Shown: piece after piece, positions 7,009 through 37,123 of the stretch
How positions within the stretch are numbered: the first letter of the stretch is position 1
How the letters are laid out: each line of letters opens with the position of its first letter
Origin: Calidithermus chliarophilus DSM 9957
GTDB taxonomy: Bacteria > Deinococcota > Deinococci > Deinococcales > Thermaceae
Length of the DNA: 37,123 bases
Reading direction: 5' to 3'
Assembly (NCBI RefSeq): GCF_000430045.1
Contig: NZ_KE387023.1
Coordinates: 1,443,690-1,480,812, forward strand
The notes under the pieces: model-generated
What the model was told of the DNA's origin: nothing
Databases searched by the model: none
The model's input: only the letters and a program-made list of their open reading frames with translations
Program-made: the position numbers and the translations under genes

Positions 7009-11154
<4,146 letters not shown>

Positions 11155-21687: not shown

Positions 21688-22974
21688 ATGAATTGGAAGA
21701 AGGCAGGCTTGCTCACGCTAACCCTGGCGGGACTGATGGGCTCGAGCCCGTTCGAGTTCAGCCAGGCCCAGGCCCAGGGCCAGCAGATCACCCTGCAGTT
21801 CTGGGGCCACTGGCTCTCCGAACAGCGCCGCCCCACCATCACCCGCATCGTCAACACCTGGAACGCCAAGAACCCCAACGTCAAGGTCGAGTACACCGGG
21901 GTTCCGTTTGATCAAATCATTAACAAAACCCTGGCCTCGGTCGCGGCCGGCAACCCCCCGGACGTGGTGGTCATCGACATCCGCACCACCCGCCTGCGCG
22001 CGGCCAAGGGGCAGAACACGAACCTCTCGGCGCTGGGCGTGGAGAGCAAGAAGAACCTCTACTTCCCCAACCTCTGGGCCACGGGCACCTACAAGGGCCA
22101 GCAGTACGGCCTGCCCTTCAACACCGACACCCGCGTGCTGTACTACAACAAGAAGGCCTTCCGGGAGGTGGGCCTCGACCCCACCCGGCCCCCGAAGACC
22201 TGGGCCGACCTCTGGAACTACGCGCTGAAGCTCGACAAGAAGGAGGGCAACCGCTACACCCGCATGGGCTTCCACCCGCTCTTCGGCGACTTCGGCTACG
22301 AGGGCTGGGTCGGCAACGCCAAGGGCCTGCTCTTCAAGGACACCGACTACGACGAGCCCGCCATCAACAACCCCACCGCGGTGAAGGTGCTCGAGTGGGT
22401 CAAGCGCTGGACCGACAAGTACGGCACCGCGCAGTACGCCGCCTTCCGCGCTTCCTTCGGCGGCGGCGCGCAGGACGAGTTCATGTCGGGCAAGGTGCCC
22501 ATGGTCGTGCGCAACGGCAACTACATCGCCACCATCGCCCGCAACGCCCCCGACCTCGAGTACGGCATCGTCCCCGTGCCCACCGAGGACGGCCAGCAGC
22601 ACCCCTACTCCTCGTGGGGCGGCGGCTTCAACGTGGAGATCCCCAAGGGCACCAAGCACCCCAAGGAGGCCCTGGCCTTCGCCATCTTCCTGACCACTGA
22701 GGGTGCTAAGTACTGGACCGCCGAGCAGAAGGACCTGCCCGGCTACCGCCTGGCCCAGCTCGAGAACAAGGATCCCCTGTTCCTGCAGCTCGTCAACAAC
22801 ATGAAGTACACCTTCGTCGCCCCCACCGCCGCCTACGCCCCCACCTACGGCACCGCCGTGGAGAAGGCCGTACAGGACGTGGTGCTCCAGGGCCGCGACC
22901 CCAAGGCCGCCCTCGACGAGGCCCAGCAGACCGTGATGAAGATGGTCGAGCAGGGCAAGCGCGAGACGCAGTAA
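21688..22974 (+). CDS. ABC transporter extracellular sugar-binding protein (family 1)
   Basis: The 428-aa product starts at ATG 21688 after CAGGAGGAC. The N-terminus is a signal peptide (KKAGLLTLTLAGLMG, with the cleavage zone at QAQAQG near 29-31) without a lipobox Cys, so it is a free or weakly held periplasmic protein. The rest is the SBP_bac_1 fold: ITLQFWGHW near 34, NPPDVVVIDIRTTR, YGLPFNTDTRVLYYNKKAF near 150 and MSGKVPMVVRNGNY near 270. It delivers an oligosaccharide to the two permeases at 29141-30954, from which it is separated by about 6 kb of catabolic genes. The promoter has a palindromic operator (21584-21607). A weak hairpin (23017-23039) follows, so some read-through into the sulfatase gene is likely. 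Confidence 0.92.
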   Translation: MNWKKAGLLTLTLAGLMGSSPFEFSQAQAQGQQITLQFWGHWLSEQRRPTITRIVNTWNAKNPNVKVEYTGVPFDQIINKTLASVAAGNPPDVVVIDIRTTRLRAAKGQNTNLSALGVESKKNLYFPNLWATGTYKGQQYGLPFNTDTRVLYYNKKAFREVGLDPTRPPKTWADLWNYALKLDKKEGNRYTRMGFHPLFGDFGYEGWVGNAKGLLFKDTDYDEPAINNPTAVKVLEWVKRWTDKYGTAQYAAFRASFGGGAQDEFMSGKVPMVVRNGNYIATIARNAPDLEYGIVPVPTEDGQQHPYSSWGGGFNVEIPKGTKHPKEALAFAIFLTTEGAKYWTAEQKDLPGYRLAQLENKDPLFLQLVNNMKYTFVAPTAAYAPTYGTAVEKAVQDVVLQGRDPKAALDEAQQTVMKMVEQGKRETQ

Positions 22975-23016
22975 CGCCGGCTCTTACCCCTTGACAACCA
23001 CGTTTTTTCCCTTCCG

Positions 23017-23039
23017 ACGGGCGACTTAGAGTCGCCCGT
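23017..23039 (+). other. Hairpin between the binding protein and sulfatase genes
   Basis: ACGGGCGAC (23017-23025) pairs with GTCGCCCGT (23031-23039) around a 5-nt loop, just before the sulfatase ribosome-binding site. It may protect the 3' end of the abundant binding-protein mRNA while allowing lower sulfatase expression. Confidence 0.4.
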
Positions 23040-23058
23040 TCGCTCGTGAGGAGCGCCC

Positions 23059-24573
23059 ATGGCCGACGACCGGCTCAGCGTCATCGTGATCCAGCTCGAC
23101 TCGCTCAACCGGCACTTCCTGAGCGCCTACGGCAACGACTGGGTGCGCACCCCCAACCTCGCGCGCTTCGCCGAGCGGGCGGTGGTCTTCGAGCAGCACT
23201 ACACCGGCTCGCTGCCGTGCATGCCCGCCCGCCGCGAGATCTGGGCCGGGGTGGAGGAGTTCTGGTGGCGGGGGTGGGGGCCGCTCGAGCCCTGGGACCG
23301 CCCCCTGGCCTTCCTGGCGGGCCAGCGGGGCATCGTCAGCCAGCTCATCACCGACCACTACCACTTCTTCGAGTGGGGTGCCCACTCCTACGCTTACGAC
23401 TTCACCGGCTACGAGTTCATCCGCGGTCACGAGCACGACAACTGGGTCACCGAGCCGTTGGCCGAGGTCCCGCCCTGGGCCCGGCGCATGGTCGAGGTTC
23501 ACGGCGAAGGCGGACTGACCTACCTGCGCAACGTCGCGCACTTCCGCGGCGAGGAGGACTTCTTCGGGCCTCGGGTGATGGCGGCCACCGCCGAGTGGCT
23601 GGGGCGCAACCACGCCCACGAGCGGTTCTACCTCCACGTCGACTGCTTCGACGTGCACGAGCCCTTCCACGTCCCCGAGCCCTACCGCTCGATGTACACC
23701 GGCCTTCCCCCCGAGGGCCGCAACCCCTGGCCGCGCTACGGCCGCACCGACGACCCCGCGATGGGCCTCACCCCCGAGGACGTGGCGTGGGTGCGGGCGC
23801 AGTTTGCGGGCAAGCTCACCATGGTGGACGCCTGGCTGGGCCGGGTGCTGGACGCGCTCGAGCGCCACCGCCTCTGGGAGCGCACCTGCGTGATGGTCAC
23901 CACCGACCACGGGCACTACCTGGGCGAGCACGACCGCATCGGCAAGCCGGGCTCGCCGCTGTGGCACACCCTCTGCCACATCCCGCTGCTGGTGTGGCAC
24001 CCTGGTGCTCGAGCCGGGCGGGTGAGCGCCGTCACCCAGACCGTGGACCTCTACGCGACGGTGCTCGAGCTCCTGGGCTTAGAAGCCCCCGAGGGCAGCC
24101 ATAGCCACAGCTTCGTGCCGGTGCTGGAAAGGAAGGACCGCCACCGCGGCTTCGCCGTCTACGGCTACAACAACCAGCGGGTGGGCCTGAGCACGCCGGA
24201 GTGGACCCTGCTGCGCGACCAGGACCCCGCCGCCGCCCCCGCCTACGTCTACAGCCACCAGGTGGGCCAGCTCAACCAGCGCTCCGCCGGGGCGCGGCAC
24301 CGGCGGGACTTCGAGCTTCTGGGCCTCGAGGCGGGCCCTTTCCTCCCCGGCGTGTCCACCCCGGTCTGGCGCATGCCCTCGGGCGCTTGGGACGTGCTCA
24401 ACCTGCACCCCCCGCGCCCCGACCTGCTCTACCACAACCCCTCCGACCCCGAGCAGGAGCGGAACCTGGCCGCCGACCGGCCTGCGAAGGTCGCGGAGCT
24501 CGAGGCCCTGCTGCGCGAGCACATGCGGCGCCTGGGGGTGCCCGAGGAGCAGTACGCCCGCCTTCGGCTGTAG
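23059..24573 (+). CDS. Type I (formylglycine) sulfatase, cytoplasmic
   Basis: The 504-aa product starts at ATG 23059. The modification motif C-x-P-x-R is present as CMPAR (Cys54-Arg58), preceded by GSLP, so Cys54 would be oxidised to formylglycine by a maturase encoded elsewhere. Metal-site residues occur at the start (IQLDSLNRHF, where one of the usual double Asp is not seen) and at TTDHGHYLGEHD near 290. CFDVHEPFH near 196 fits the active-site His. No signal peptide is visible, so it acts in the cytoplasm. The substrate cannot be told by sequence; the neighbouring glycosidases suggest sulfated sugars. It lies 84 nt after the sugar-binding protein gene in the same direction, which links desulfation to import. 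Confidence 0.88.
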   Translation: MADDRLSVIVIQLDSLNRHFLSAYGNDWVRTPNLARFAERAVVFEQHYTGSLPCMPARREIWAGVEEFWWRGWGPLEPWDRPLAFLAGQRGIVSQLITDHYHFFEWGAHSYAYDFTGYEFIRGHEHDNWVTEPLAEVPPWARRMVEVHGEGGLTYLRNVAHFRGEEDFFGPRVMAATAEWLGRNHAHERFYLHVDCFDVHEPFHVPEPYRSMYTGLPPEGRNPWPRYGRTDDPAMGLTPEDVAWVRAQFAGKLTMVDAWLGRVLDALERHRLWERTCVMVTTDHGHYLGEHDRIGKPGSPLWHTLCHIPLLVWHPGARAGRVSAVTQTVDLYATVLELLGLEAPEGSHSHSFVPVLERKDRHRGFAVYGYNNQRVGLSTPEWTLLRDQDPAAAPAYVYSHQVGQLNQRSAGARHRRDFELLGLEAGPFLPGVSTPVWRMPSGAWDVLNLHPPRPDLLYHNPSDPEQERNLAADRPAKVAELEALLREHMRRLGVPEEQYARLRL

Positions 24574-24581
24574 CTTGTAGC

Positions 24582-24628
24582 GTGCGCCTGCGCACCGGCC
24601 GTTCCAAACGGGGTGCGCGAGCGCACCC
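24582..24628. terminator. Two perfect hairpins after the sulfatase gene
   Basis: GTGCGC/GCGCAC (24582-24595, 2-nt loop) and GGGTGCGC/GCGCACCC (24611-24628, 2-nt loop) follow the sulfatase stop at once. They are the last high-GC structures before base composition drops at about 24650. Confidence 0.45.
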
Positions 24629-24698
24629 TGCGATTCCGCTGGTGTCACATAGGCCGCACCGCCCTGGACAGATATGGCCTATTGGCTAAAAATTAGGG

Positions 24699-24727
24699 TT
24701 GAATTATTGTTCTAACAGAACTAGAAT
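24699..24727 (+). promoter_or_regulatory. Sigma70 promoter of the lactonase-family gene
   Basis: TTGAAT (24699-24704) and TAGAAT (24722-24727) are 17 bp apart, the best sigma70-type promoter in the window. The spacer contains the inverted repeat GTTCT-AAC-AGAAC (24709-24721), a possible operator. Both lie in AT-rich sequence unlike the flanks. Confidence 0.6.
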
Positions 24728-24799
24728 GAAACTGGGTTGAACCAGTCAACTCGGCAGCCTTTCCCGCGTGTATGGGGAAGAGGGCAAAAGGAGATAATT

Positions 24800-25504
24800 A
24801 TGCGCCAGAATGCCGTGAAGCGTCTTTATTTGATGCAAGTCGGGATCATGCCGGAGTACCAGATTCCGATAGTTTGCTATCTGGTGCAAACGGGTGACGG
24901 CAAGAACATTTTGATTGACAGTGGTCTGCCGGAGGTCATCCCTGAAGGAGAATCGGAGTTCGAGAACGGGCGGGACGTTATCGAGCAGTTGCTGAGCATT
25001 GGCCTAAAACCGGACGATATTGATACAGTCGTTTCAACGCACTACGACGGAGACCATGCCGGGAGACACGCGGCTTTCACGAAGGCGCAATACGTTGTTC
25101 AGCGTGCGCATCATTCGGACGCGGCGAGCAACCCACGTTATGCCGCCATTCGACCCCAATGGGATCAGCCGATAGGGCGTATCCGGCTGGTGGACGGGGA
25201 CACGGAACTTCTGCCGGGGCTGGAGCTGATTGAGACGAGCGGGCATGTGCCGGGACACCAATCAGTGCTGGTGCGGCTGCCCGAAACGGGGGCGGTATTA
25301 CTGACGATTGACGCGGTGCCCTTCGGCGAGGACTTTACCCGCGGCAGGCAGGACGGCGGTAGCAACCCGGACGCCGAAGCGACCCGCGCCAGTACGATTA
25401 AGCTGCTCGATCTGGTCGAAAGGGAGCATATCGGGCTGGTGATTTTCGGTCATGACAAGGAGCAGTGGGAGACGCTGAAAAAAGCGCCGGAGTTCTACGG
25501 GTAG
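24800..25504 (+). CDS. AHL-lactonase-like metallo-beta-lactamase-fold hydrolase, probably acquired
   Basis: The start is ATG 24800 behind AAAAGGAGATAA; an upstream in-frame start at 24737 lies downstream of the promoter but has no ribosome-binding site. The 234-aa single-domain MBL protein resembles the N-acyl-homoserine-lactonase family. Its metal motif is HYDGDH (81-86), with Asp83 in place of the second His of HxHxDH. The later ligands SGHVPGH, TIDAVPF and FGHD are all present. Base composition is clearly lower in GC than the neighbours, and the CTCGAG habit is absent, which points to recent horizontal transfer. The substrate, lactone or otherwise, is uncertain. It sits alone between the sulfatase gene and an MFS remnant, inside the glycan island. 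Confidence 0.8.
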   Translation: MRQNAVKRLYLMQVGIMPEYQIPIVCYLVQTGDGKNILIDSGLPEVIPEGESEFENGRDVIEQLLSIGLKPDDIDTVVSTHYDGDHAGRHAAFTKAQYVVQRAHHSDAASNPRYAAIRPQWDQPIGRIRLVDGDTELLPGLELIETSGHVPGHQSVLVRLPETGAVLLTIDAVPFGEDFTRGRQDGGSNPDAEATRASTIKLLDLVEREHIGLVIFGHDKEQWETLKKAPEFYG

Positions 25505-25595
25505 TGGAAAGAGGCTAGATGGTTAGCAGCGGGTAATGCTGCAACTGCCCTCACCCCCAGCCTCCCTCCCAGGCACGCCCGGCGGAGACATGGCC

Positions 25596-25901
25596 TCACG
25601 TCCGCCGCTCGAGCCGCCCCACCGCCACCCAGGAGGCCGCGACGAAGACCAGGGCCCCCAGGAATACCGCCCGGTAGCCCAGCGCGTCGGCCAGCACCCC
25701 GCCCAGGAAGGGGGCGAAGGCCAGCATCCCGATGAAGGTGTTCATGGCGCCCAGGTAGCGGCTGTGCTCCTCGGCGGGCGCGGCGAACCAGCCGTTGAGC
25801 ACCCCCAGCCGGTAGTTGCGGGCGCGCATCTTTTCGGGGAATTGCCCCCAGGACTCGTTCAGCATGGGCCGGGAGACGCCCCCCGCCAGCGGGGGCCGGG
25901 C
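25596..25901 (-). pseudogene. C-terminal remnant of an MFS transporter
   Basis: The minus-strand frame encodes about 100 residues that read as the last third of a major-facilitator transporter. ARNYRLGVLNGWFAAPAEEH is followed by two helices (GAMNTFIGMLAFAPFLGGVL and YRAVFLGALVFVAASWVAVG) and a basic tail. The N-terminal helices are missing. Coding sense begins directly after the TAA of the GH38 gene (25902-25904) and happens to be in the same frame. An ATG at 25865 could start an 89-aa product, but this could not transport. It is best read as a deletion scar, possibly from the event that brought in the lactonase-family gene. Confidence 0.65.
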
Positions 25902-28334
25902 TTAATTCGAGCCCTCCCACTCGAGCAGGTTCACCTCCCGCGCCTCGCCCTTTCCGCGCGGGATGAGCAGGGTCTTGATCTCGTAGGGGCCGAAGTCGGC
26001 CTCGAGGGTGCGCCCCAGCAGCGGGATGGCGACGCGGGCGCGGGCGGCTTTCCCAGTGCTCTCGTAGAGCCGCAGGATCAGGTCGCCCGAGTCCTCGGCC
26101 TTCTTGAGCACGGTGGGCACGACGCTGGCGGGGCTCACCTCGAGGAAGCTAGCCTTGGGCCTGAGCTCGCCCGCGTGGTAGCTCTCGACCAGGGCGACGG
26201 GGCGCTGGTTGAGCTCGAGGGCCCGCCGCGGCAGCTCGGCCTCCTCCCAGGAGCCCGCGTGGGGCAGCAGCCAGTAGGTGAAGCGCTGGAGGCCCTGGTC
26301 CATGTAGCTGTACTCCTCGGCGGGGTCGGGCACGTAGGGGTCGTGGTGGGCGTAGATGGGGCTGCGCAGCACGGTGAGGTAGAGGGTGTGGCCCTCGGCG
26401 GAGTAGCTGTACTTGGCGTCGTTGAGGAGGGCCAGCCCGTGGACGGCCCCGGTGGGCCGGTAGACCCCGCTGAGGTCGGCCCAGCTCTGGCCCGGCTCCT
26501 CCTCGCCGTTGGTGGGGCGGGTCAGCGCGCCGTAGGGGGCCTCGTAGGTGGCCTGGGGGAAGTGCAGGTTGGCGGGGAAGGCCAGCTTGAGCGCCTTGTG
26601 CTGCTCGCGCCAGTCCAGCGTGACCCGCACCTCGAGGTGCGGCAGGTCGTGGTAGAGGGTGAAGTCCTGCAAGAGCACCGAGCGCCCGTAGGTGCTCTTG
26701 ACCCGCAGCACCGCCTTGACCGGCCCCTGCTCATAAAGCCGCACCGACTCGGCCTCGAAAGCCCCGCTGAAGCGGTCGAAGCGCAGGACGCCGTGGCTCC
26801 AGGTGTCCGAGCGGTCCTCCGCGACCAAAGCCTGCGCCCCCAGGCCCTTGAAGACCTCGAGGTCGCGCACCTTGTCGTAGAGGCTGGCGATGGCCCCGCT
26901 TTGGGGGTCGAGGGTGAGGCGGTAGAAGCGGTTCTCGAGGGTGTGCTGCGTGGCCTCGACCCAGGGGTGCGCTTTGGGCCGGGCCGCGGGCTTGACCCGG
27001 TAGAGCCGGTGCCCGAAGGCGGGGAGCTCGGCCACGAAGGCCAGCCGCTTGCGCCAGCCGCTCACGGTGGCCCCCGAGCGCACCGTCTGCAGCGGCACCT
27101 GGCGGCCCCGCTCGTCCACCAGCGCGTCGCCCTCCTTGAGCCCGCCGTACTCGAGCTCCACCTCCGCCCGCACCGCCCAGGGGTGGGGGTTGAAGACCAC
27201 CACGGGCTTCATGCCCTCCTCGGCGGGGATGTCCACCTGCCAGGAGAGGGCCTGCGCCGCGTCGTTGGCGACGTGGGAGGCGATGGACAGGGCCTCGCCC
27301 AGCTCGTTCCTCGCGTCGTCGTAGGCCGCTTCCAGGCTGGTGCCGGCCAGGATGTCGTGGAACTGGTTGAACAGCACCCGCTTCCAGGCGTGCTCGAGCA
27401 CTTGCGCCGGGTAGGGCCGCCCCAGCCGCACGTGGGCCAGCGTGGCGAGCTTCTCCGCCAGCAGCAGCGCGTTCTCGGCCTTGCGGTTCCACTGCTTGAC
27501 GCCCGAGTGCGCGGCGTAGCAGCCGCTGGCGTGGTGCTGCAGCTCCTCGTGCCAGGCGGGGATGCCCGGGGTGCCCTCCACGGCCTCGAAGTAGGCCTCG
27601 GGGTGGCTCAGCCGCAGCTCGGGGAACTCGGGGTCGGCGGCGAGGCGGCGGATGGACTCGAGGTTCTCCCGCGTGGGCCCCCCGCCGTGGTTGCCCACCC
27701 CGTAGAAGCACATCAGCGTGTCGAAGGGGGGCTTGACCTCGGTGAGGCACTTGCGCACGTGAATTTCCAGGTCCTTGCCCCAGGTGGTGTACTCGTAGGG
27801 GATGCGGAAGGTGAGCACCCTCGAGCCGTCCGGCGAGCCCCACCAGAACAGCCGCCCGGGCAGGTTCTGCTCGTGGGGGCCGGGGCGCATGAAGGTGTAG
27901 TAGGGCATCCCGCTCTTGAGCAAGATCTGCGGCAGCGTGGCCGCGTGGCCGAAGGAGTCGGGGTTGTAGCCCACCCGCGCGACGCGCCCGAAGCGGCTTT
28001 GGAAGTAGCGCTGGCCGTAGAGCCCCTGCCGCACGAAGGCCTCGCCGCCGGGGATGTTGCAGTCGGGCTCCACCCACCAGCCCCCCACCAGCGCCCAGCG
28101 CCCCTCCTGCACCCGCTGCCGGATCTCCTCGAACATCGCCGGGTCGTTGTGCTCGACCCAGGCGTAGAAAGCCGCCGAGCTGCAGGTGAACACGAAGTCG
28201 GGGTACTCCCGCATGCGGTCGAGGGCGCTGCGGAAGGAGGCCTTGATCTCCTGGAAGCCCTCGCGCCAGTCCCACAGCCACACCGGGTCGATGTGGGCGT
28301 TGCCGATCATGTGGAAGGTGCCTCGCTTGCCCAT
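25902..28334 (-). CDS. GH38 alpha-mannosidase family enzyme 1
   Basis: The 810-aa cytoplasmic protein starts at ATG 28334 after GGGGGAG. Its N-terminal catalytic domain (1-270) carries the GH38 zinc motif (NAHIDPVWLWDWREG, His14 and Asp16), the nucleophile Asp126 in YNPDSFGHA, and GVGNHGGGPT near 218. The helical middle domain (ELQHHASGCYA, LEHAWKRVLFNQFHDILAGT) and the C-terminal beta-sandwiches (about 350-810) are complete. The length is typical of bacterial GH38 (MngB type). GH38 members cleave alpha-1,2/1,3/1,6-mannosides or mannosylglycerate derivatives; the linkage is not predictable. It begins one base after the stop of the isomerase gene, so the pair is an operon. A paralogue lies at 33847-36357. 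Confidence 0.92.
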   Translation of the reverse strand: MGKRGTFHMIGNAHIDPVWLWDWREGFQEIKASFRSALDRMREYPDFVFTCSSAAFYAWVEHNDPAMFEEIRQRVQEGRWALVGGWWVEPDCNIPGGEAFVRQGLYGQRYFQSRFGRVARVGYNPDSFGHAATLPQILLKSGMPYYTFMRPGPHEQNLPGRLFWWGSPDGSRVLTFRIPYEYTTWGKDLEIHVRKCLTEVKPPFDTLMCFYGVGNHGGGPTRENLESIRRLAADPEFPELRLSHPEAYFEAVEGTPGIPAWHEELQHHASGCYAAHSGVKQWNRKAENALLLAEKLATLAHVRLGRPYPAQVLEHAWKRVLFNQFHDILAGTSLEAAYDDARNELGEALSIASHVANDAAQALSWQVDIPAEEGMKPVVVFNPHPWAVRAEVELEYGGLKEGDALVDERGRQVPLQTVRSGATVSGWRKRLAFVAELPAFGHRLYRVKPAARPKAHPWVEATQHTLENRFYRLTLDPQSGAIASLYDKVRDLEVFKGLGAQALVAEDRSDTWSHGVLRFDRFSGAFEAESVRLYEQGPVKAVLRVKSTYGRSVLLQDFTLYHDLPHLEVRVTLDWREQHKALKLAFPANLHFPQATYEAPYGALTRPTNGEEEPGQSWADLSGVYRPTGAVHGLALLNDAKYSYSAEGHTLYLTVLRSPIYAHHDPYVPDPAEEYSYMDQGLQRFTYWLLPHAGSWEEAELPRRALELNQRPVALVESYHAGELRPKASFLEVSPASVVPTVLKKAEDSGDLILRLYESTGKAARARVAIPLLGRTLEADFGPYEIKTLLIPRGKGEAREVNLLEWEGSN

Positions 28335-28335
28335 C

Positions 28336-28908
28336 TCACTCCCCCAAAGCCCAGCCGTCGAGCGCTTCGCAGATCATGTGGATCAGGAGGACGTGCATCT
28401 CCTGGACGCGGGCCGTGGAGGCGGAGGGCACCGCCAGGCAGAAGTCGGTGAGCGGGCGCATCGCCTCGGTGTGCTCCCCGGTGAGCCCCACCCGCACCAC
28501 GCCCAGGCGAGCGGCGGCCTCGAGCGCCGCCAGCACGTTCTTCGAGCGCCCCGAGGTGCTGATGCCGAAGAGCACGTCGCCGGGGCGGGCCAGGGCCTCG
28601 AGCTGCCGCGCGAAGACCTGCTCGAAGGCGTAGTCGTTGCCGATGCAGGTGAGGGCCGAGGAGTCGGTGGTGAGGGCCAGCGCCGCGAGCGGGCGGCGCT
28701 CGCGGCGGTAGCGCCCCGAGAGCTCGGCGGCGAAGTGCTGCGCGTCGGCGGCGCTGCCCCCGTTGCCGCAGACCATCAGCTTGCCGCCCTGCTCGAGCGC
28801 CCTGATGCAGGCCTCACTGACGCGCCCTAGCTCGGGGAAGAGCGCGGGGAGGCGCTCGAGCACCCGCCGGTGCTCGTCCCAGTACGCCTCGAAGATGGCC
28901 TGGCTCAT
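28336..28908 (-). CDS. gmhA-like: GmhA-like phosphosugar isomerase (SIS domain)
   Basis: The 190-aa SIS protein closely resembles sedoheptulose-7-phosphate isomerase in length and motifs: CGNGGSAADAQHFAAELSGR (about 47-66, with metal ligands His58 and Glu62), LTTDSSALTCIGNDY, GISTSGRSKNV and VQEMHVLLIHMICE (Gln and His ligands). GmhA normally starts ADP-heptose synthesis for LPS. Here it lies in a mannosidase operon with no other heptose gene, so a role in sugar-phosphate catabolism is more likely, or a moonlighting use of a related ketose/aldose phosphate. Its ATG overlaps the stop of a 17-aa leader ORF (ATGA). The operator at 29024-29052 controls this operon and the divergent permeases. Confidence 0.85.
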   Translation of the reverse strand: MSQAIFEAYWDEHRRVLERLPALFPELGRVSEACIRALEQGGKLMVCGNGGSAADAQHFAAELSGRYRRERRPLAALALTTDSSALTCIGNDYAFEQVFARQLEALARPGDVLFGISTSGRSKNVLAALEAAARLGVVRVGLTGEHTEAMRPLTDFCLAVPSASTARVQEMHVLLIHMICEALDGWALGE

Positions 28909-28958
28909 CGCCCGACCCCGCCGGTGCTGGTGAGATAGCCGGTTGCAACGAAGTTCAT
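28905..28958 (-). CDS. 17-aa leader ORF translationally coupled to the isomerase gene
   Basis: The sequence MNFVATGYLTSTGGVGR is encoded from ATG 28958 behind a strong AGGAGGT (28965-28971). The stop TGA (28907-28905) overlaps the isomerase start as ATGA. The isomerase gene itself has no good ribosome-binding site apart from this ORF. The arrangement indicates re-initiation: ribosomes load on the mini-ORF and continue into the isomerase. The peptide has no recognised function. Confidence 0.5.
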   Translation of the reverse strand: MNFVATGYLTSTGGVGR

Positions 28959-29023
28959 AGCCTACCTCCTCGGCTGTGTGCCGTCCCTTCTTAATCTCTG
29001 GGCTCCAGCATATACCAAAATCC

Positions 29024-29140: not shown

Positions 29141-30061
29141 ATGGTCAAACGGCCGAGAATGTCGGCGATGCGCCGAAAGGAGGCGATCACGGGCTACTTG
29201 TTCATCATGCCCTGGTTGCTGGGCTTCATCCTGTTCACCGCCGGCCCCATGCTCTTCTCGCTCTACGCGAGCTTTACCAACTACGACGTCACCAGCCGCT
29301 TCGACTGGGTGGGGCTGGAGAACTACCGCCGGCTGCTCTTCGACGACCCCTTTTTCTGGTTGAGCCTGAAAAACACCGCCTACTACGCGGTGTTCGCCGT
29401 GCCGTTGGGGATCGCCACCGGCCTGATCATCGCGGTGCTGCTCAACCAGCAGGTGCCCGGCCAGCGCGTATTCCGCACCATCTTCTTCCTGCCCAAGGTG
29501 CTCACCGGGGTCGCGGTGCTGCTGCTGTGGCTGTGGGTCTTCAACCCCAACTTCGGTCCCATCAACGTCTTCCTGCGCTTTCTGGGCGTCGAGAACCCGC
29601 CCCTTTGGTTCTCCGACCCCAACTGGTCCAAGCCCGCGCTCATCATCATGAGCATGTGGGGCGCTGCGGGCGGGTACATCATCTACCTGGCCGGCCTGCA
29701 GGGCATCCCCAAGCACCTCTACGAGGCCGCGGCCATCGACGGGGCCAGCCCCTTCCGGCAGTTCCTGGCCATCACCGTGCCCATGATGTCGCCCACCATC
29801 TTCTTCAAGCTCATCGTGGGCTTCTCCGGCGCGATGCAGTTCTGGGAGAGCGTGCTCATCGTGTCGGAGGGCGGGCAGGGCGGGCCTTCGTACTCGACGC
29901 TGTTCTACGGGCTGTACATGTGGCAGGAGGCCTTCGGGCGCTACCGCATGGGCTACGCCTCGGCCATGGCCTGGATCCTGCTGCTCATCACCCTGGCCTT
30001 CACCGTCATCCAGCTCAACCTCTCCAAGCGCTGGGTCCACTACGAGGGGGATAGCCGATGA
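29141..30061 (+). CDS. ABC sugar permease 1 (MalF/UgpA type)
   Basis: The 306-aa membrane protein starts at ATG 29141 after GAGGAAGGAGGGAG. It has six predicted helices, beginning LFIMPWLLGFILFTAGPMLF near 20. The EAA loop that docks the ATPase is YEAAAIDGASPFRQFLAITV near 200. Such permeases import oligosaccharides with a binding protein, here probably the product of 21688-22974. It overlaps permease 2 by 4 nt (ATGA). No MsmK/MalK-type ATPase is encoded in the window, so a shared one elsewhere is needed. Confidence 0.92.
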   Translation: MVKRPRMSAMRRKEAITGYLFIMPWLLGFILFTAGPMLFSLYASFTNYDVTSRFDWVGLENYRRLLFDDPFFWLSLKNTAYYAVFAVPLGIATGLIIAVLLNQQVPGQRVFRTIFFLPKVLTGVAVLLLWLWVFNPNFGPINVFLRFLGVENPPLWFSDPNWSKPALIIMSMWGAAGGYIIYLAGLQGIPKHLYEAAAIDGASPFRQFLAITVPMMSPTIFFKLIVGFSGAMQFWESVLIVSEGGQGGPSYSTLFYGLYMWQEAFGRYRMGYASAMAWILLLITLAFTVIQLNLSKRWVHYEGDSR

Positions 30062-30954
30062 GACAGGCTTCCAAGCTCGAGACGCCCGAAACCCAAACCC
30101 GCCTGCCCAAGGTGCGCCGCTGGAACCCCTGGCAGATCCTGCTGCGTACCCTGGCCTTCGTCCTGCTGTGCATCATCAGCGCCGCGATCCTGTTCCCGGC
30201 CTTGTGGATGATCTCCACCGCGCTCAAGCCCGACACCCAGGTCTACGCCAGCCCACCCATCTGGATCCCCGACCCCCTGATGTGGGAGAACTTCGCCAAG
30301 GCCTGGAGCCTCGCCCCCTTCACCCGCTACTTCATCAACACCAGCCTCTTCACCCTCGCCGTGGTGTTCGGCACGGTGCTCTCGTGCAGCCTCGCCGCCT
30401 ACGGCTTCGCCAAGCTGCGCTTCCCCGGCCGCGACTTCCTCTTCGTGGTGCTGCTGGCGACCATGATGATCCCCGGCATGGTGACCATGATCCCGCAGTT
30501 CATCCTCTTCTCCAAGCTGGGCTGGGTGGGCACCTACTTGCCGCTGGTAGTCCCCAGCTTCTTCGCCGGGGCCTTCTTCACCTTTTTGCTGCGCCAGTTC
30601 TACCTCACCATCCCCACCGAGCTCTCCGAGGCCGCCAAGATGGACGGGGCCTCCGACTTCTGGATCTGGCGGCGGGTGATCGTGCCGCTGTCGGCCCCGG
30701 CCCTGTCCACGGTGGCGATCTTCACCTTCGAGGGCACTTGGAACTCCTACGTGGGGCCCATCCTCTACCTCAACAAGGAAGAGCTCTACACCCTGCAGGT
30801 GGGCCTGCAATTCTTCCGCACCGCCAGCGAGGTGCAGTGGCAGTACCTGATGGCCGCCAGCCTGCTCGTGATGCTGCCGGTGATCATCATCTTCTTCGCC
30901 TTCCAGCGGTACTTCGTGGAAGGGGCGGCGATCAGCAGCGCGGTGAAGGGGTGA
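30058..30954 (+). CDS. ABC sugar permease 2 (MalG/UgpE type)
   Basis: The 298-aa partner of permease 1 starts at ATG 30058 inside the previous stop codon. Its cytoplasmic N-terminus of about 35 residues is followed by six predicted helices (TLAFVLLCIISAAILFPALW first). The EAA loop is SEAAKMDGASDFWIWRRVIV near 190. The two permeases form the heterodimeric channel of a family-1 carbohydrate importer. A strong terminator (31098-31125) follows after a repeat-rich spacer. Confidence 0.92.
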   Translation: MRQASKLETPETQTRLPKVRRWNPWQILLRTLAFVLLCIISAAILFPALWMISTALKPDTQVYASPPIWIPDPLMWENFAKAWSLAPFTRYFINTSLFTLAVVFGTVLSCSLAAYGFAKLRFPGRDFLFVVLLATMMIPGMVTMIPQFILFSKLGWVGTYLPLVVPSFFAGAFFTFLLRQFYLTIPTELSEAAKMDGASDFWIWRRVIVPLSAPALSTVAIFTFEGTWNSYVGPILYLNKEELYTLQVGLQFFRTASEVQWQYLMAASLLVMLPVIIIFFAFQRYFVEGAAISSAVKG

Positions 30955-30973
30955 GGGGTGCGGATAGCCGGTA

Positions 30974-31163
30974 GCTGATAGCTGGGCGCGGGTCGTGCGT
31001 CGTACGTCCTACGTCGTACGCCAAACGCCAAACGCCAAACGCAAGACGCAAGACGCCCCTTCTTCACCCCCCTTAACAAGGGGGGCTGGGGGGATCCCCC
31101 CGCCCCGCGCGCGGGGCGGGGTTTTGCACGGGCCACGGGCCTTCCGCTGACGGCTGATAGCTG
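30974..31163. repeat. Short-repeat spacer (7-bp tandem units and an 11-bp direct repeat)
   Basis: Five 7-bp units stand in tandem at 31021-31055: three CCAAACG and two CAAGACG. They are preceded by imperfect CGTACGTC units (30999-31020). The 11-mer GCTGATAGCTG appears at 30974-30984 and 31153-31163, flanking the block. No ORF is present. It resembles simple repeats prone to slippage. Confidence 0.5.
31067..31125. terminator. Stacked GC hairpins and intrinsic terminator between convergent units
   Basis: Three palindromes follow each other: CCCCCCTT/AAGGGGGG (31067-31085), GGGGGG/CCCCCC around AT (31088-31101) and a 12+12 perfect palindrome (CCCCGCCCCGCG, 31098-31109, against CGCGGGGCGGGG, 31110-31121) followed by TTTT (31122-31125). 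The last is a good intrinsic terminator for the permease operon. The set also separates it from the convergent ROK gene. Confidence 0.6.
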
Positions 31164-31193
31164 CCCGCTTACTCCCAACTGCTCGCCCCGCGC

Positions 31194-32408
31194 TTATGCC
31201 ACGCTGTAATCGGGCACGGCCGCGCTTTGCACCAGCTTGGGGTTGCGGATGACCTGCTCGACCACCAGGGCCACGGCACCCAAGGAGGCGCTGTGCTCGC
31301 CGAGCTGGGCGGGGATGATGCGGACGTCTTTGGAGAGGAAGCCGAAGGAGCGGCCGCGCACCTTTTCGCTGACCTGCACGCACAGGTCGGGCCAGGCGCG
31401 CACCAGGGTGCCGCCTAGGATGATGAGGTCGGGGTCGTAGTGGTTGACGGCGTTGACCAGCACGGCGGCGAGGTAGTGGTAGGTGCGCTGTTTGACCGCC
31501 AGGGCCACGGGGTCCTCGAGCAGCGCCAGGTTCTGGATGGACTGCGGGTCACTGACCGGGAGCCCCTGGCTGCGGGCGTACTGCACGATGGCGGGCACCG
31601 AGACGTAGGTCTCGGCGCAGCCGTGGTTGCCGCAGCCGCAGCGGGGGCCATCCACGTTGATGGTGGTGTGCCCGATCTCCCCGGCCAGCTCGTGGGTGCC
31701 GCGGTAGAGGCGGTCGCGCACGATCAGGCCCGCGCCCACGCCCGAGCGCAGGCTGACGTAGAGCAGGTTCTCCACGCCCTGCCCCGCGCCGTACCAGCGC
31801 TCGCCCAGGGCCGCGGTCTTGGCGTCGTCGTCGAGCCACACCGGCACGCCCCAGCGCTGGGCCAGGACGGGGCCCAAGGGGACGTTGCGCCAGCCGTGCA
31901 CGAAGTTGGTGGGCTCGAGCACTACGCCGCCCGCGGTGTCCACCGGCCCCGGGATCCCCACCCCGATGCCCACCGGGCGCCCCTCGCCCTCGAGCAGCGT
32001 CTGGATGACCTTGTGGATCAACGAGAGCGTCTCGTCCACGCCGCCCTCGAGGCGGTGGGCCAGCTCCATGCGCTTGAGGATGCGGCCCCCCAGGTCGGTG
32101 AGGATGCCCCGCACCACCGAGCGGGAGACCTCCAGGCCCACGATCTTGCCCGCCGCGCCGCGCAGGGTGAGGAGGGTGGGGCGGCGGCCCACCTGCTTGC
32201 TGGTGGCCTTCTGCTCCTCGATCAGGCCGAGCTCGAGCAGCTCGTCCACCAGGTAGGTGATGGTGGCGGAGGTGAGGGCGGTGGCCTCGGCCAAGTCGGC
32301 GCGGGAGATGGGCTGGAGCTTGCGCAGCGCGTCCAGGACCACCGAGAGGTTTTCGGCCCTGACCTTGGTCAGGTTGCTGCCGGTGCGAACGGATACGGGT
32401 TTTTTCAT
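31194..32408 (-). CDS. ROK-family transcriptional repressor
   Basis: The 404-aa product starts at ATG 32408. It has an N-terminal winged helix (about 15-75; SRADLAEATALTSATITYLV) and a ROK sugar-kinase-like domain (85-404). The ROK zinc motif CGCGNHGCAE is present near 262-271, and WLDDDAKTAALGE near 193 supplies the sugar-binding and catalytic Asp. XylR/NagC-type members dissociate from DNA on sugar or sugar-phosphate binding. The gene lies 80 nt after the GH4 gene on the same strand, so it is probably in the 36357-31194 operon and controls it. Three CTTAA-N4/5-TTAAG palindromes at the island promoters are candidate sites. Site assignment is inference. Confidence 0.9.
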   Translation of the reverse strand: MKKPVSVRTGSNLTKVRAENLSVVLDALRKLQPISRADLAEATALTSATITYLVDELLELGLIEEQKATSKQVGRRPTLLTLRGAAGKIVGLEVSRSVVRGILTDLGGRILKRMELAHRLEGGVDETLSLIHKVIQTLLEGEGRPVGIGVGIPGPVDTAGGVVLEPTNFVHGWRNVPLGPVLAQRWGVPVWLDDDAKTAALGERWYGAGQGVENLLYVSLRSGVGAGLIVRDRLYRGTHELAGEIGHTTINVDGPRCGCGNHGCAETYVSVPAIVQYARSQGLPVSDPQSIQNLALLEDPVALAVKQRTYHYLAAVLVNAVNHYDPDLIILGGTLVRAWPDLCVQVSEKVRGRSFGFLSKDVRIIPAQLGEHSASLGAVALVVEQVIRNPKLVQSAAVPDYSVA

Positions 32409-32488
32409 GGCGGGCGACCGGGATCGGACCCTTTCGGCTATTAGTTTACGCTTTCAAAAAAATATGGCGAGCCCGGGTTAAGGCGCAC

Positions 32489-33844
32489 TCAGGCCCCGGC
32501 GCCCCCCTGCCGCAGGAACTCGGGCAGCCAGCGCTGCTGGGCCTGAAGCAGCTCGGCGGTCATGGCCTGAACCTGCGGGGGCGTGAGCAGCGCGGCGGTG
32601 AGGGGGTCGAGCAGCAGGGCGTGGGTGACGTGCTCGGGGTTTTGCTCGAGCACCGCCGCCACCGCGAGCTGCTGGGGCAGGATGTTGGTCTGGTTGAGCG
32701 CGGCGCACTGGAGGGGCAGCCTGCCCACCGGCTGGGGGTGGACGCCGCTGGCGTCCACGGTGCAGGGCACCTCCACGCAGGCCTCGGCGGGCAGGTTCTC
32801 GACGTAGCCCCGGTTGACCACGTTGCCGTAGACCCGGGTGGGCTGGCCGCGCTCCACCGCGCGGATGATCTGCATGCCGTACTCGGCGGAAGGGGTGAGG
32901 TCGCGCTTGAGCGCTTCGACCAGGGCCAGGGTCTGCTCCTCCTCCTTGCCCGCGTTGGCGATGCAGAAGCGCAAATAGTCCCAGCGGCGGGGGATGTACT
33001 CGCTCACCAGCTCGGGGTTCTTGCGGAAGTAGGGCACGTACTCGCTGGAGTGGTGGCTCGACTCGCTGACGAAGTAGCCGAAGGCGTCCATCAGCTCGGC
33101 GCGCACGCGCTCCTGGCCGCCCACGTAGGTGGGGGTGCCCTCGGTCCAGGGGGTCGAGCCGCCGTACTCGGGCAAGAACTCGGCCCGCAGGCGCTCGAGC
33201 AGCCTGGGCCGGAGGTCCTCCCCGCCCTGCTCCAGCCGCAAGAACCAGGCCTGGTGGTTGATGCCGGCGGCCAGGTACTCCAGCTCCTCGAGGGGCACGC
33301 CCAGCTTCTCAGCCAGCATCCGGGCGGTGCCGGGGATCGAGTGGCACAGCCCCACCACCTTCACCCCGAAGGCGGCCAGGTAAAGGCAGTTCATGGCCAT
33401 GGGGTTGGTGTAGTTGAGCACCCAGGCCTCGGGGCAGACGGCCCGCACGTCCTGGGCGATGTCCCGCAGGGCGGGGGCGCTGCGCAGGAAGCGGAAGACC
33501 CCGCCCGGCCCCAGGGTGTCGCCGGCGGGCAGGTCCACGCCGTACTTGCGGGGGATCTCGAGGTCGGCGCGGTAGGCCTCGATGCCCCCCACCTGGAAGG
33601 TGAGGATCACGTATCCGGCGCCCTGCAGGGCCTCGCGCCGGTCGTCGGTGGCCCAGGCCTCCAGCTCCACGCCGTGGTGGGCGCACAGCTCCTGCACCGC
33701 GCGCAGGGTGCGGACGGCCCGCTTTAGCGAGAGGTCCATCAGCACCAGCTCGCTGCCGTGCAGCTCGGGCAGGGCCAGCAGGTCGGCGGCCAGCCGCAGC
33801 GGGAAGGTGATGCCCCCGGCTCCGATGATCGCGATCTTAGGCAT
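32489..33844 (-). CDS. GH4 NAD-dependent glycosidase (MelA/AglA-like)
   Basis: The 451-aa product starts at ATG 33844, 2 nt after the stop of the GH38 gene; a longer frame upstream overlaps that gene and is rejected. The N-terminal Rossmann loop is IIGAGGITFPLRL (NAD binding). NYTNPMAMN near 148 is followed by GLCHSIPG with the metal-ligand Cys, and AGINHQAWFL holds the ligand His. SSEYVPYFRKN near 270 also fits. GH4 enzymes oxidise C3 with NAD+, eliminate the aglycone and need Mn2+ and a reductant. The CHS sequence class includes alpha-galactosidases (MelA) and alpha-glucuronidases, while CHEV variants are alpha-glucosidases. So the substrate is probably a galactoside-type or uronide-type sugar, not proven. 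Confidence 0.88.
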   Translation of the reverse strand: MPKIAIIGAGGITFPLRLAADLLALPELHGSELVLMDLSLKRAVRTLRAVQELCAHHGVELEAWATDDRREALQGAGYVILTFQVGGIEAYRADLEIPRKYGVDLPAGDTLGPGGVFRFLRSAPALRDIAQDVRAVCPEAWVLNYTNPMAMNCLYLAAFGVKVVGLCHSIPGTARMLAEKLGVPLEELEYLAAGINHQAWFLRLEQGGEDLRPRLLERLRAEFLPEYGGSTPWTEGTPTYVGGQERVRAELMDAFGYFVSESSHHSSEYVPYFRKNPELVSEYIPRRWDYLRFCIANAGKEEEQTLALVEALKRDLTPSAEYGMQIIRAVERGQPTRVYGNVVNRGYVENLPAEACVEVPCTVDASGVHPQPVGRLPLQCAALNQTNILPQQLAVAAVLEQNPEHVTHALLLDPLTAALLTPPQVQAMTAELLQAQQRWLPEFLRQGGAGA

Positions 33845-33846
33845 GC

Positions 33847-36357
33847 TCACTCCTCGAGCAGGTTGACTTCCTGCAAGCCCGCCGGGCTCAGGCGGTAGGT
33901 CTTGATCTGGTGGGGCCCGGCCTCGACCGTGAAGCCCTGGCCGAAGGCTTCCAGGCGCGTCCGTGCTGCGCGCCCGTGGGGCTCGAAGAGGCGCAGGACC
34001 AAGCCGTCGCCGTCCTCGGCCCGCTTGAGCGCGGTGAGGTGCAGGGCCTGGGGGTCTTCCAGGCGCACGAAGCCCTGCAGCGGGGGCGCCTCCCCGGCGT
34101 GGACGTACTCGCGCACGAAGGGCAGGGGGGAGTTGAAGTCCTGGGCGTGCCGGGTCACGCCCGCCGCGCGCCAGTCGCCCGCGTGGGGGAGCAGCGCCCA
34201 GCGCAGGCTCTGTAGCCCCTGGTCCTGGTAGGCGTAGCGCACGCCGGGCTCGAGCCGGGCCGGGTCGTGGTGCCCGAAGACCGGGCTGCGCAGCAGGGTG
34301 AGCCGGGCCTCGCCGCCCAGCACGCTGGCCGAGTACTTGCAGTCGTTGAGCAGGGCCACCCCGGCAGGGTGGGCCACCCCCCGCGCGTCGCGCACGCTGC
34401 CGCTGACGTCGAGCCAGCGCTGCACCGGCTCCTCCTGGCCGTCGGCGGGGCGCACCGCGTGGCCGTAGGGCACCTCGAAGGTGGCTTCGGCGCCGGAGAG
34501 GGCGAAGGGGAAGGCGAGTTGTAGGGCCTGGTGCTGCTCCTGCCAGTTGACCCAGAGCTCGCCCTCCAGGCGCGGGCTGTGGCGGTAGAGGTGGAGGTGC
34601 TGCCGGGCCCAGGAGCCCCGGTAGCGGTACTCCAGCCGCAGCGTGGCCCGCACCGGGCCGCTCTCGACCAGCTCGCAGCCCGTGGGCTCGAACACCCCCA
34701 GCAGGTGGCGCAGGGAGGTGAGGCCGTGGCCCCAGGTGTCGGTGGGGTCGTGCACCACCAGCAACTGCGCTGCGGCCCCGGCGAGCAGCTCGAGGCCGCG
34801 CTCCTTGTCGTAGAGGCTCTTCAGCGCCCCGGTGGCGGCCTCGAGCTCGAGCCGCCACCAGCGGTTGGCGAGGTGGGTGGGGGAGGCCTCCAGCGGCGGG
34901 GCATCCGCGGGCAGGGGGGCCGGGGGCTGGTCCACCACGCGGTAGAGCCGGTAGCCCAGGGGGGGCAGCTCCACCTCGAAGAGCACGGCGGGCCGCCCGC
35001 CCGAGGCGCTCTCGGGCTGGACGCCCTGGTGGTAGAGGGGTTGCCCGGTGTCGTCGAGGACGCACAGCTCGGGGGTGTGCCAGTCGTTGAGCTCGAGCCG
35101 GAAGGCCTCGCGGCGCGGCCAGGGCGAGGGGTTGAAGACCAGCACCGGCACCCCGTCGCCGTAGTCGGTGACCCAGGTGGGGCCGTCCCAGCGCACCGAG
35201 CGGATGGGGGCCTCCGGCTCGGCCCCGCCCAGGCGGGTGTCCACCCGCGAGGCGATGGCCTGCATGGCGCTAAAGCCCACCCGGTGGGCGCGGGCCAGGG
35301 CCTCGCCCAGCTCGTTGCGGCTGTCGGCGTAGGCGCTGGCGACGCTCGAGCCCGCCAGGATGTCGTGGAACTGGTTGAAGAGCAGGCGCTTCCAGGCGTG
35401 CTCCAGCTCGGCGCGGGGGTAGGCGAAGCCGTAGGCGCCCGCCATCACCGCGAGCTTCTCGGCGGTGAGCAGGGCCTCCTCGGCCTGGCGGTTGAGGCGC
35501 TTGATCTCGGAGAAGGCCGCGTAGCAGCCGCGGGCGTGGTGCTGCAACTCGCCGCTGTAGGTGGGGTTTTCGAAGCCCCCCAGGCGCTCCATGAGCTGCT
35601 CGAGGCTCCCCAGCCGCAGGGTGGGCCAGTCGGGGTCCTCGGCGAGCTTGCGGATGGAGGCGATGGCCTTTTTGGTGGGGCCGCCGCCGTGGTTGCCCAC
35701 CCCGAAGAGGCCCAGCCACTCGGGCAGGTGCTCGGGCCGCCAGGCCAGGTTGCGCTCCAGCGAGGAGTCGATGAACAGCGGGTTGGTGTTGTAGCACTCC
35801 ACCCGCAGCGCCAGCACGCTCTGCCCGTCGGGCGATTGCCAGCGGAAGAGGTTGGAGGGCAGCTCGACCTCGCCCGCGCCGGGGCGCATGAACACGAAGA
35901 ACTCCAGGCCCAGGCCCCGGAAGATCTGGGGCAGGGTGGCGGGGTGGCCGAAGGAGTCGGGGAGGAAGGCCACGCGGGCGCGGCGGCCCACCAGGCGCTC
36001 GAGCTCGCGCTGCCCGTAGAGCCCCTGCCGCACCAGCGCCTCGCCGCTGGGGATGTTGACGTCGGGCTCGACCCACCAGCCCCCGACCGGCTCCCACTGG
36101 CCCCGCGCCACCGCCGCCCGCACCTCCTCCAGCAGCGCGGGGTGCTCCTCCATCCAGGCGTACTGCGCGGCGGAGGAGTGCACGAAGACCATGTCGGGGT
36201 TCTCCGAGAGCCGGTCGAGGGCGCTGCGGAAGGTGGCCTTGACGGTTTCGTAGCCCTCGCGCCAGTCCCACAGCCACACCGGGTCGATGTGGGCGTGCCC
36301 TACCAGGGTAAAGACCAGGCGCTTGTCGCGCAGCTTGGGGGTTTGCGGCTTGACCAT
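33847..36357 (-). CDS. GH38 alpha-mannosidase family enzyme 2
   Basis: The start is ATG 36357, with GAGGTG placed correctly upstream; GTG 36366 is part of that site and is rejected. The 836-aa enzyme has the GH38 zinc motif GHAHIDPVWLWDWREG, nucleophile Asp134 in FLPDSFGHP, GVGNHGGGPTK near 225 and ELQHHARGCYA. The middle and C-terminal domains are intact. It shares block motifs with the enzyme at 25902-28334 (GLYGQR, EHAWKRLLFNQFHDILAGSS), so the two are ancient paralogues, not recent copies. They may act on different linkages of one glycan. No signal peptide is present. It heads the operon GH38-GH4-ROK. Confidence 0.92.
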   Translation of the reverse strand: MVKPQTPKLRDKRLVFTLVGHAHIDPVWLWDWREGYETVKATFRSALDRLSENPDMVFVHSSAAQYAWMEEHPALLEEVRAAVARGQWEPVGGWWVEPDVNIPSGEALVRQGLYGQRELERLVGRRARVAFLPDSFGHPATLPQIFRGLGLEFFVFMRPGAGEVELPSNLFRWQSPDGQSVLALRVECYNTNPLFIDSSLERNLAWRPEHLPEWLGLFGVGNHGGGPTKKAIASIRKLAEDPDWPTLRLGSLEQLMERLGGFENPTYSGELQHHARGCYAAFSEIKRLNRQAEEALLTAEKLAVMAGAYGFAYPRAELEHAWKRLLFNQFHDILAGSSVASAYADSRNELGEALARAHRVGFSAMQAIASRVDTRLGGAEPEAPIRSVRWDGPTWVTDYGDGVPVLVFNPSPWPRREAFRLELNDWHTPELCVLDDTGQPLYHQGVQPESASGGRPAVLFEVELPPLGYRLYRVVDQPPAPLPADAPPLEASPTHLANRWWRLELEAATGALKSLYDKERGLELLAGAAAQLLVVHDPTDTWGHGLTSLRHLLGVFEPTGCELVESGPVRATLRLEYRYRGSWARQHLHLYRHSPRLEGELWVNWQEQHQALQLAFPFALSGAEATFEVPYGHAVRPADGQEEPVQRWLDVSGSVRDARGVAHPAGVALLNDCKYSASVLGGEARLTLLRSPVFGHHDPARLEPGVRYAYQDQGLQSLRWALLPHAGDWRAAGVTRHAQDFNSPLPFVREYVHAGEAPPLQGFVRLEDPQALHLTALKRAEDGDGLVLRLFEPHGRAARTRLEAFGQGFTVEAGPHQIKTYRLSPAGLQEVNLLEE

Positions 36358-36405
36358 GCGGGACACCTCGCGCTCGAGACTTGCTTAGCGGGGACAGTGT
36401 ACCTT

Positions 36406-36434
36406 ATTATCTTAAAAGATTTAAGAAACTGCAA
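36406..36434 (-). promoter_or_regulatory. Promoter of the GH38-GH4-ROK operon with operator in the spacer
   Basis: On the minus strand, TTGCAG (36434-36429) and GATAAT (36411-36406) are 17 bp apart. The inverted repeat CTTAA (36411-36415), AAGAT, TTAAG (36421-36425) fills the spacer and touches the -10, so a bound repressor would exclude polymerase. The site also lies 41 bp before the divergent ATG at 36466 and could act on both genes. Confidence 0.65.
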
Positions 36435-36465
36435 CGTGCCCGCCGGACCCCCCAGAGGAAGCTGC

Positions 36466-37123
36466 ATGACCGACCCTTTAACCCACCTGTCGCCGCAGAT
36501 CAGCCAGGACGCCCGCGGCTGGCACCTGGAGGCGCCGGGCTACCGCCTGCACCTCCCCGCCGAGCGGCCCTTCGCCCTGCTCGAGGACGCCGAGGGCCAG
36601 CCCTGGGCCGAGCTCTTCCTGGCCCCCAGCCTGCACGCCCTGGAGGGCCTCGACACCACCGCCCGCATCGAGGCGCCCAGGGTCCGCAGCGAGGGCGGGC
36701 GTGCGGTGGTCGAGCTCGAGCTGCTCGGCTCGCGCTGGCGGCGCAAGGTGCTGGTGCTGGAGTGCTTCGCCCACCACCTGCGGGCCTACGTGCGGCTCGA
36801 GGGCCAGGGCCGCCTCACCGACGCCCACTACTTCGGCGGCTACTACAGCGGCCACCTGCGCTGGGGCAGCGGCTTTTTCGCCAGCGGGACGCGCTGGGGC
36901 GGGGTGTTCAACCCCGAGCCCTACGCCTCCGAGCGCCGCCTGCTCCCGGCCTTCGAGCCCACCGCCATCGACGTGATGGGCACCTCGCTCCCCGGCAAGG
37001 GCCACTGGTTCTTCACCCCGGCGCCTTTTTACTACGCTTTTACCAAATCCGCGCCGCAGGCGGGTGCCCTCACGCCGGGGGCGCTGGGCGCCGACCAGGG
37101 CGGCACGCCGGTCCCGGCGGCCG
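36466..37123 (+). CDS. Unidentified beta-rich protein of the glycan island, 3' truncated by the window
   Basis: The frame is open from ATG 36466, with AGAGGAAG (36454-36461), to the window edge (219 codons). The beginning MTDPLTHLSPQISQDARGWH is followed by a beta-rich stretch with YGR-like patterns: LHLPAERPFALLED, VVELELLGSRWRRKVLVLE and GGYYSGHLRWGSGFFASGTR. This is reminiscent of the N-terminal supersandwich of GH36/GH31-type alpha-glycosidases, but I cannot name a family. There is no signal peptide. It is divergent from the GH38-GH4-ROK operon across the operator at 36411-36425, which places it in the same regulon. The high Trp/Tyr content near 125-145 suits carbohydrate binding. The rest of the gene is needed. 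Confidence 0.7.
   Translation, partial: MTDPLTHLSPQISQDARGWHLEAPGYRLHLPAERPFALLEDAEGQPWAELFLAPSLHALEGLDTTARIEAPRVRSEGGRAVVELELLGSRWRRKVLVLECFAHHLRAYVRLEGQGRLTDAHYFGGYYSGHLRWGSGFFASGTRWGGVFNPEPYASERRLLPAFEPTAIDVMGTSLPGKGHWFFTPAPFYYAFTKSAPQAGALTPGALGADQGGTPVPAA

Follow-up and report, generated by a model that had tools for sequence, protein, structure and literature searches.

We analyzed a stretch of 37,123 nucleotides (the window; C3:1443690-1480812) of the 4.69-Mb genome of Calidithermus chliarophilus DSM 9957. It carries the left part of a gene island of about 38 kb that extends from window position 21688 to about 59426. The last base of the window abuts an assembly gap of 100 N (window 37124-37223), and coordinates beyond 37123 are extrapolated over this gap. 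Past the gap, the island continues as a tight run of 16 genes on the same strand, which spans about 23 kb and ends at about 59426. Between the GH31-like and the MGH1/GH100-like gene, neighbors in this run overlap by up to 22 bp or lie at most 81 bp apart; the next gap is 215 bp. The features are the following, where "run strand" is the strand shared by the genes of the run:

21688-22974, plus strand: solute-binding protein of a sugar ABC importer (PF01547, SBP_bac_1, 136.7 bits)
23059-24573, plus strand: type I sulfatase-fold enzyme, sulfatase A (PF00884, 110.9 bits; C54-M-P-A-R58)
24737-25504, plus strand: metallo-beta-lactamase-fold (MBL) hydrolase (PF00753)
25902-28334, minus strand: putative GH38 alpha-mannosidase, GH38a (four GH38 domains; N, middle, and C above cut-off)
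28336-28908, minus strand: GmhA-like SIS phosphosugar isomerase, SIS1 (TIGR00441, 202.2 bits)
29141-30061, plus strand: ABC importer permease A (PF00528, BPD_transp_1)
30058-30954, plus strand: ABC importer permease B (PF00528, BPD_transp_1)
31194-32408, minus strand: ROK-family regulator (PF00480, 200 bits)
32489-33847, minus strand: GH4 NAD-type glycosidase, predicted MelA class (PRK15076, 525.3 bits for a cut-off of 486)
33847-36366, minus strand: putative GH38 alpha-mannosidase, GH38b, abutting GH4 (PF01074, 195.5 bits, plus middle and C domains)
36466-37123, plus strand: GH31-like glycosidase (clan GH-D type), N-terminal portion; the gene opens the run and is cut at the window end
L006:2914-4086, run strand: remainder of the GH31-like gene past the gap (weak PDB matches)
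38393-41281, run strand: third putative GH38 enzyme, GH38c (Pfam)
between GH38c and the class II aldolase, run strand: Asp/Glu racemase-like protein
between the racemase-like gene and GH2, run strand: class II aldolase
42870-45374, run strand: GH2 protein (nearest solved relatives are beta-mannosidases)
between GH2 and SIS2, in this order, run strand: DUF624 membrane protein, ROK kinase, TIM-barrel epimerase, Gfo/Idh oxidoreductase
48808-49410, run strand: second SIS protein, SIS2 (TIGR00441, 78.4 bits)
49492-50940, run strand: sulfatase B (CLPSR motif)
between sulfatase B and GH84, run strand: two-domain MBL protein (MBL2)
52709-54040, run strand: GH84, putative beta-N-acetylglucosaminidase (NAGidase, PF07555, 287 bits)
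between GH84 and GH3, in this order, run strand: MGH1/GH100-like protein (GHx), DUF1537 kinase
57249-59426, run strand: GH3, last gene of the run

The importer, the sulfatase, the GH4 enzyme, and the two GH38 enzymes that an earlier sequence-only reading had named in the window were all recovered in place with Pfam and NCBIfam models. Its list had left out SIS1, the ROK regulator (whose N-terminus is a winged helix with weak MarR-type winged-helix matches), the MBL gene, and the start of the GH31-like gene. The MBL hydrolase is lactonase-like, its gene has a GC content of 0.576 (0.714 in a neighboring gene and 0.705 in the window), and no counterpart was found in any related locus. It is probably a recent insertion and, given its low GC and the lack of counterparts, we rejected it as a member of the pathway. 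Beside GH38a, a short frame on the minus strand (~25594-25859) resembles, by eye, the C-terminus of an MFS transporter. On either side, the island is flanked by a large PAS/GAF sensor kinase (window 7009-11313 and L007:8737-12069), and the two look similar.

The binding protein starts with a signal-like sequence (MNWKKAGLLTLTLAGLMG). It was the only protein of the set with a signal peptide in a simple N-terminal scan judged by eye, in agreement with the earlier claim that the catalytic proteins lack export signals. The locus itself holds no ATPase for the importer; three MalK-type ATPases are encoded elsewhere in the genome. The trio formed by the binding protein and the two permeases is syntenic in LB3_2 (a distant MAG), G151, and G491. 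The binding-protein counterpart in LB3_2 is 37% identical and lies next to the permeases; the counterparts of permease A in these three genomes are 43-50% identical, and those of permease B 35-49%.

From their Pfam domains and the absence of signal peptides, the three GH38 proteins are putative cytoplasmic exo-alpha-mannosidases. GH38a has the motifs AHIDP and PDSFGH, its nearest solved relative is Ams1 (7vqo, E 2.1e-79), and its counterparts in LB3_2, G054, and G491 are 56-57% identical. Two further GH38 sequences were observed: a C-terminal remnant of a fourth gene (L007:1341-1748, about window 55551-55958), apparently decayed, which is 41% identical to the GH38 encoded after the MGH1/GH100-like gene of LB3_2, and a gene outside the island (G000:C3:621353-622114), which gives the best PF01074 match of the genome. 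The GH4 protein has a CHS-type motif (C168-H-S) and, with its score above the PRK15076 cut-off, is assigned to the MelA/alpha-galactosidase class; relatives 46-48% identical lie near a sulfatase in two other loci (L010 and L011). The sequence-only reading had left the choice between a galactosyl-type and a uronosyl-type residue, and because of this class the former is the better guess.

Homology also suggests roles for the glycosidases past the gap. The nearest solved relatives of GH2 are beta-mannosidases (E 1.2e-70), making it a putative beta-mannosidase for Man-beta-GlcNAc, and those of GH84 are enzymes of the O-GlcNAcase/hyaluronidase family (E 3.6e-65), making it a putative exo-beta-N-acetylhexosaminidase in place of a GH20. 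The GH31-like protein has no Pfam match. The PDB matches of its C-terminal half, past the gap, are weak and to GH31 alpha-galactosidases only. Most of its N-terminal part aligns with proteins of LB3_2, G054, and G491 at 41-46% identity, and the motifs DDKW, DGFKxDF, RLND, and DTDNW are conserved. This suggests that it may represent an unclassified family of clan GH-D. Among the island proteins scanned, we found no endo-glycosidase (GH85 or GH18), GH92, GH125, or GH20.

We used the GH31-like gene as a marker of the island. In the phylum of Calidithermus it was found in only one other genome among 111, G491, of the same order. Its absence from near relatives made a comparison of regulons impossible. 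The cluster of G491 includes the importer, the GH31-like gene, aldolase, GH84, ROK kinase, MBL2, TIM epimerase, GH38a, another GH38, an SIS, and Gfo/Idh. In LB3_2, about 18-20 island counterparts, among them sulfatase A, the importer, SIS1, and GH38a, lie on 38 kb of one contig (JADDQE010000014.1); the grouping is thus not due to chance. The identities there are 59% for sulfatase A, 44% for SIS1, 37-50% for the importer, 56% for GH38a, 37% for GH2, 54% for the TIM epimerase, 56% for Gfo/Idh, 57% for the MGH1/GH100-like protein, 37% for GH84, 56% for the aldolase, 47% for the racemase-like protein, 52% for the GH31-like protein, and 41% for DUF1537; the contig also bears fragments of GH4 and GH3. 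The marker was found in 9 of 400 genomes of the phylum of LB3_2, and three other MAGs (G054, G149, and G151) have linked subsets of the island. The conserved core therefore comprises the importer, the GH31-like, GH38, and GH84 glycosidases, SIS, the aldolase, the epimerase, the oxidoreductase, and a kinase, and the sulfatases are accessory to it. As the island continues past the gap and sets of counterparts recur in other genomes, a single conserved pathway is likely.

The two sulfatases are the only PF00884 proteins of the genome. Both have an intact C/S-x-P/A-x-R maturation motif (CMPAR at residue 54 in A, CLPSR in B), and an alignment of A with 7 relatives revealed invariant D14, S15, C54-R58, D283, H284, and K296. 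These 7 relatives are 57-65% identical; in all, relatives of A at 56-64% identity were seen in Anaerolineae, Chloroflexi, Armatimonadetes, and other MAGs. An AlphaFold model of A, made with 7 relatives, had a mean pLDDT of 54, which was insufficient for searching by fold. The nearest solved relatives of A belong to the sulfatase/phosphonate monoester hydrolase (PMH) group (4uph and 2vqr), hence a phosphodiester substrate is still conceivable, and among the NCBIfam models it scores best with PehA, a phosphoric/sulfuric ester hydrolase, though its 129.9 bits are far under the cut-off of 900. Sulfatase B also matches carbohydrate sulfatases, e.g., 5g2v and 7stt, and sits within the gene run with a gap of 0 bp to the next gene. 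Concerning maturation, we found no PF03781 match, i.e., no FGE, in the genome, and no anSME at model level (the only match has 57.7 bits for a cut-off of 349); FGE is present in 5 of the 8 genomes bearing a relative of sulfatase A.

The sequence-only reading had counted on the sulfatase remaining linked in relatives, which was found for half of them. The relative of A is linked to GH38, ABC, and SIS genes in L012, to SIS and GH4 genes in L011, and lies near GH4 in L010; it is away from glycan genes in L013, L014, and L015. In the island-bearing genomes, sulfatases occur in three of six loci: one adjoins the cluster of G491, LB3_2 has others besides A, and none was seen in G054, G149, and G151 (the contigs of G054 and G151 are only ~35 kb long). 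The earlier suggestion that the glycan is perhaps sulfated is only partly supported: it is favored by linked sulfatases with intact motifs and weakened by their absence from half of the loci and by the lack of an FGE and a model-level anSME in the genome. Sulfation of the substrate is the least certain element of our reading. In two MAGs, a KpsF-type SIS gene lies directly upstream of sulfatase A (L013:8963-9958 and L014:7948-8916), a pairing that echoes that of SIS2 and sulfatase B.

The TIGR00441 model detected no GmhA-like protein in the genome other than SIS1 and SIS2. Both score below its cut-off of 209.45 bits, SIS1 just below. SIS1 matches GmhA of C. jejuni (1tk9) with an E-value of 2.6e-61. 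Aligned with 1tk9 and with homologues of GmhA from within the order, it keeps the His/Glu and Gln/His positions that we take to be the zinc and catalytic positions of GmhA. We found no HldE-type heptose kinase in the genome and thus rejected heptose biosynthesis: with the sole GmhA-like proteins both in the locus and no such kinase, a biosynthetic role is unlikely. The usual substrate of GmhA is manno-configured. We infer that SIS1 would isomerize a manno-configured phosphate, e.g., mannose 6-phosphate; a limited literature search found no publication on a mannose phosphate isomerase of the SIS/GmhA type. The tree of SIS proteins was mostly unresolved, and since the locus copies form no clade, SIS1 is unusable as a marker of orthology.

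Overall, we consider it rather likely that these genes form one catabolic island that would import a glycan containing alpha-Man, beta-Man, and beta-GlcNAc for intracellular degradation, with sulfatases unmasking residues. The exported binding protein would capture the oligosaccharide, which would enter via the two permeases, energized by an ATPase encoded elsewhere in the genome. In the cytoplasm, the GH38 enzymes would strip alpha-mannose, GH4 and the GH31-like enzyme alpha-galactose-type residues, GH2 would cleave beta-mannose, and GH84 (possibly also GH3) beta-GlcNAc or another beta-residue. The two type I sulfatases, presumably cytoplasmic, would unmask sulfated residues and let the exo-enzymes proceed. 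The ROK kinase could then phosphorylate mannose, the GmhA-like SIS could turn the mannose phosphate into a ketose phosphate, and an aldolase could split the latter; a ROK repressor would sense the product. The substrate would be most like a decorated N-glycan core. The earlier proposal that a hetero-glycan with mannose takes an intracellular route is supported, with GH2, GH84, and a third GH38 added downstream in a set conserved across lineages. Tentatively, one may go further: it is possible that this is an undescribed pathway for sulfated Man/GlcNAc glycans, present in distant lineages, with a new clan GH-D marker, a GmhA-like mannose-phosphate isomerase, and a sulfatase maturation independent of FGE and anSME.

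Other explanations must be weighed against this one. The glycan might be unsulfated. A and B, as members of the wider alkaline-phosphatase superfamily, would then cleave off decorations attached as phosphodiesters or phosphonates, or have a small ester, for example choline sulfate, as their substrate. The match of A to PehA, its solved PMH relatives, the apparent similarity to choline sulfatases, by motif and alignment, of the sulfatases linked in LB3_2 and G491, and the SIS phosphosugar isomerases found close to sulfatase A in several loci all fit this explanation. We nevertheless regard it as unlikely: differing sulfatases recur by the same glycosidases in three loci, as expected from variable sulfation, and B resembles carbohydrate sulfatases. 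We are similarly doubtful that this is an ordinary alpha-mannoside or N-glycan locus where the sulfatases are passengers or inactive. The C-x-P-x-R motif is kept in both, the core residues of A are invariant in its family, and B is embedded in the gene run, whereas passengers would better explain the genome without detected FGE or model-level anSME, the unlinked copies of A, and the loci devoid of sulfatases. Moreover, a sulfatase with an unmodified cysteine is capable of slow turnover, and an unidentified maturation activity is suspected in E. coli (PMC6189696).

One might also see two separate adjacent loci, one made of the window part (importer, GH4, GH38, and sulfatase A) and the other of the downstream run from the GH31-like gene to GH3. 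While the transcriptional orientations differ and the two parts join close to the assembly gap, both parts are intermixed on one contig of LB3_2, and in G491 the importer, SIS, and GH38a sit with the GH31-like and GH84 genes, which makes such a division quite improbable. Finally, the substrate could contain a manno-heptose, with a GmhA reaction running in reverse from heptose 7-phosphate to sedoheptulose 7-phosphate. This seems very unlikely, even with the GmhA zinc and catalytic positions kept in SIS1 and kinases and aldolases in the island, since SIS1 misses the cut-off of the GmhA model, the genome has no recognizable heptose kinase, and mannose 6-phosphate would be the simpler choice among manno-configured substrates. 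The single catabolic island for a Man/GlcNAc glycan is the reading we retain.

The N-glycan-type intracellular pathways available for comparison are from host-associated bacteria. A much larger island common to a member of Deinococcus-Thermus and to unrelated MAGs suggests an environmental Man/GlcNAc glycan, possibly sulfated. The island is also a concrete test case for sulfatase maturation independent of FGE, and two of its proteins are candidates, one for an unclassified family of glycosidases and the other for a mannose phosphate isomerase of the GmhA type. A limited literature search found no publication joining GH38, sulfatase, ABC transporter, N-glycan, and ROK.

Three known systems are close to parts of the island. 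In S. pneumoniae, the NgtS-P1-P2 importer brings in an N-glycan fragment that is degraded inside the cell, and the locus likewise has a GH38, a ROK protein, and a binding protein with two ABC permeases (PMC5215778). It differs by its GH92, GH125, GH29, GH20C, and secreted EndoD, none of which was found in the island, whereas the latter has two sulfatases, GH84, GH2, GH4, the GH31-like protein, SIS, aldolase, and Gfo/Idh. The N-glycan core loci of C. acnes also combine GH38, beta-mannosidase, beta-hexosaminidase, and ABC genes without signal peptides, and the second of them pairs GH38 with GH4 as well; they have GH5_18 and GH20 where the island has GH2 and GH84, and the main text of that study mentions no sulfatase (PMC6160142). 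In the sulfated alpha-mannan PUL of marine Bacteroidota, sulfatases and alpha-mannosidases act sequentially on a sulfated mannose polymer, but with GH195, GH92, and exported outer-membrane and periplasmic enzymes (PMC13063451) instead of cytoplasmic GH38. The sequence-only reading had proposed the locus as a candidate new pathway. The logic of ABC import followed by cytoplasmic exo-glycosidases is known; what is new is the larger and unusual enzyme set, conserved and with partly uncharacterized members.
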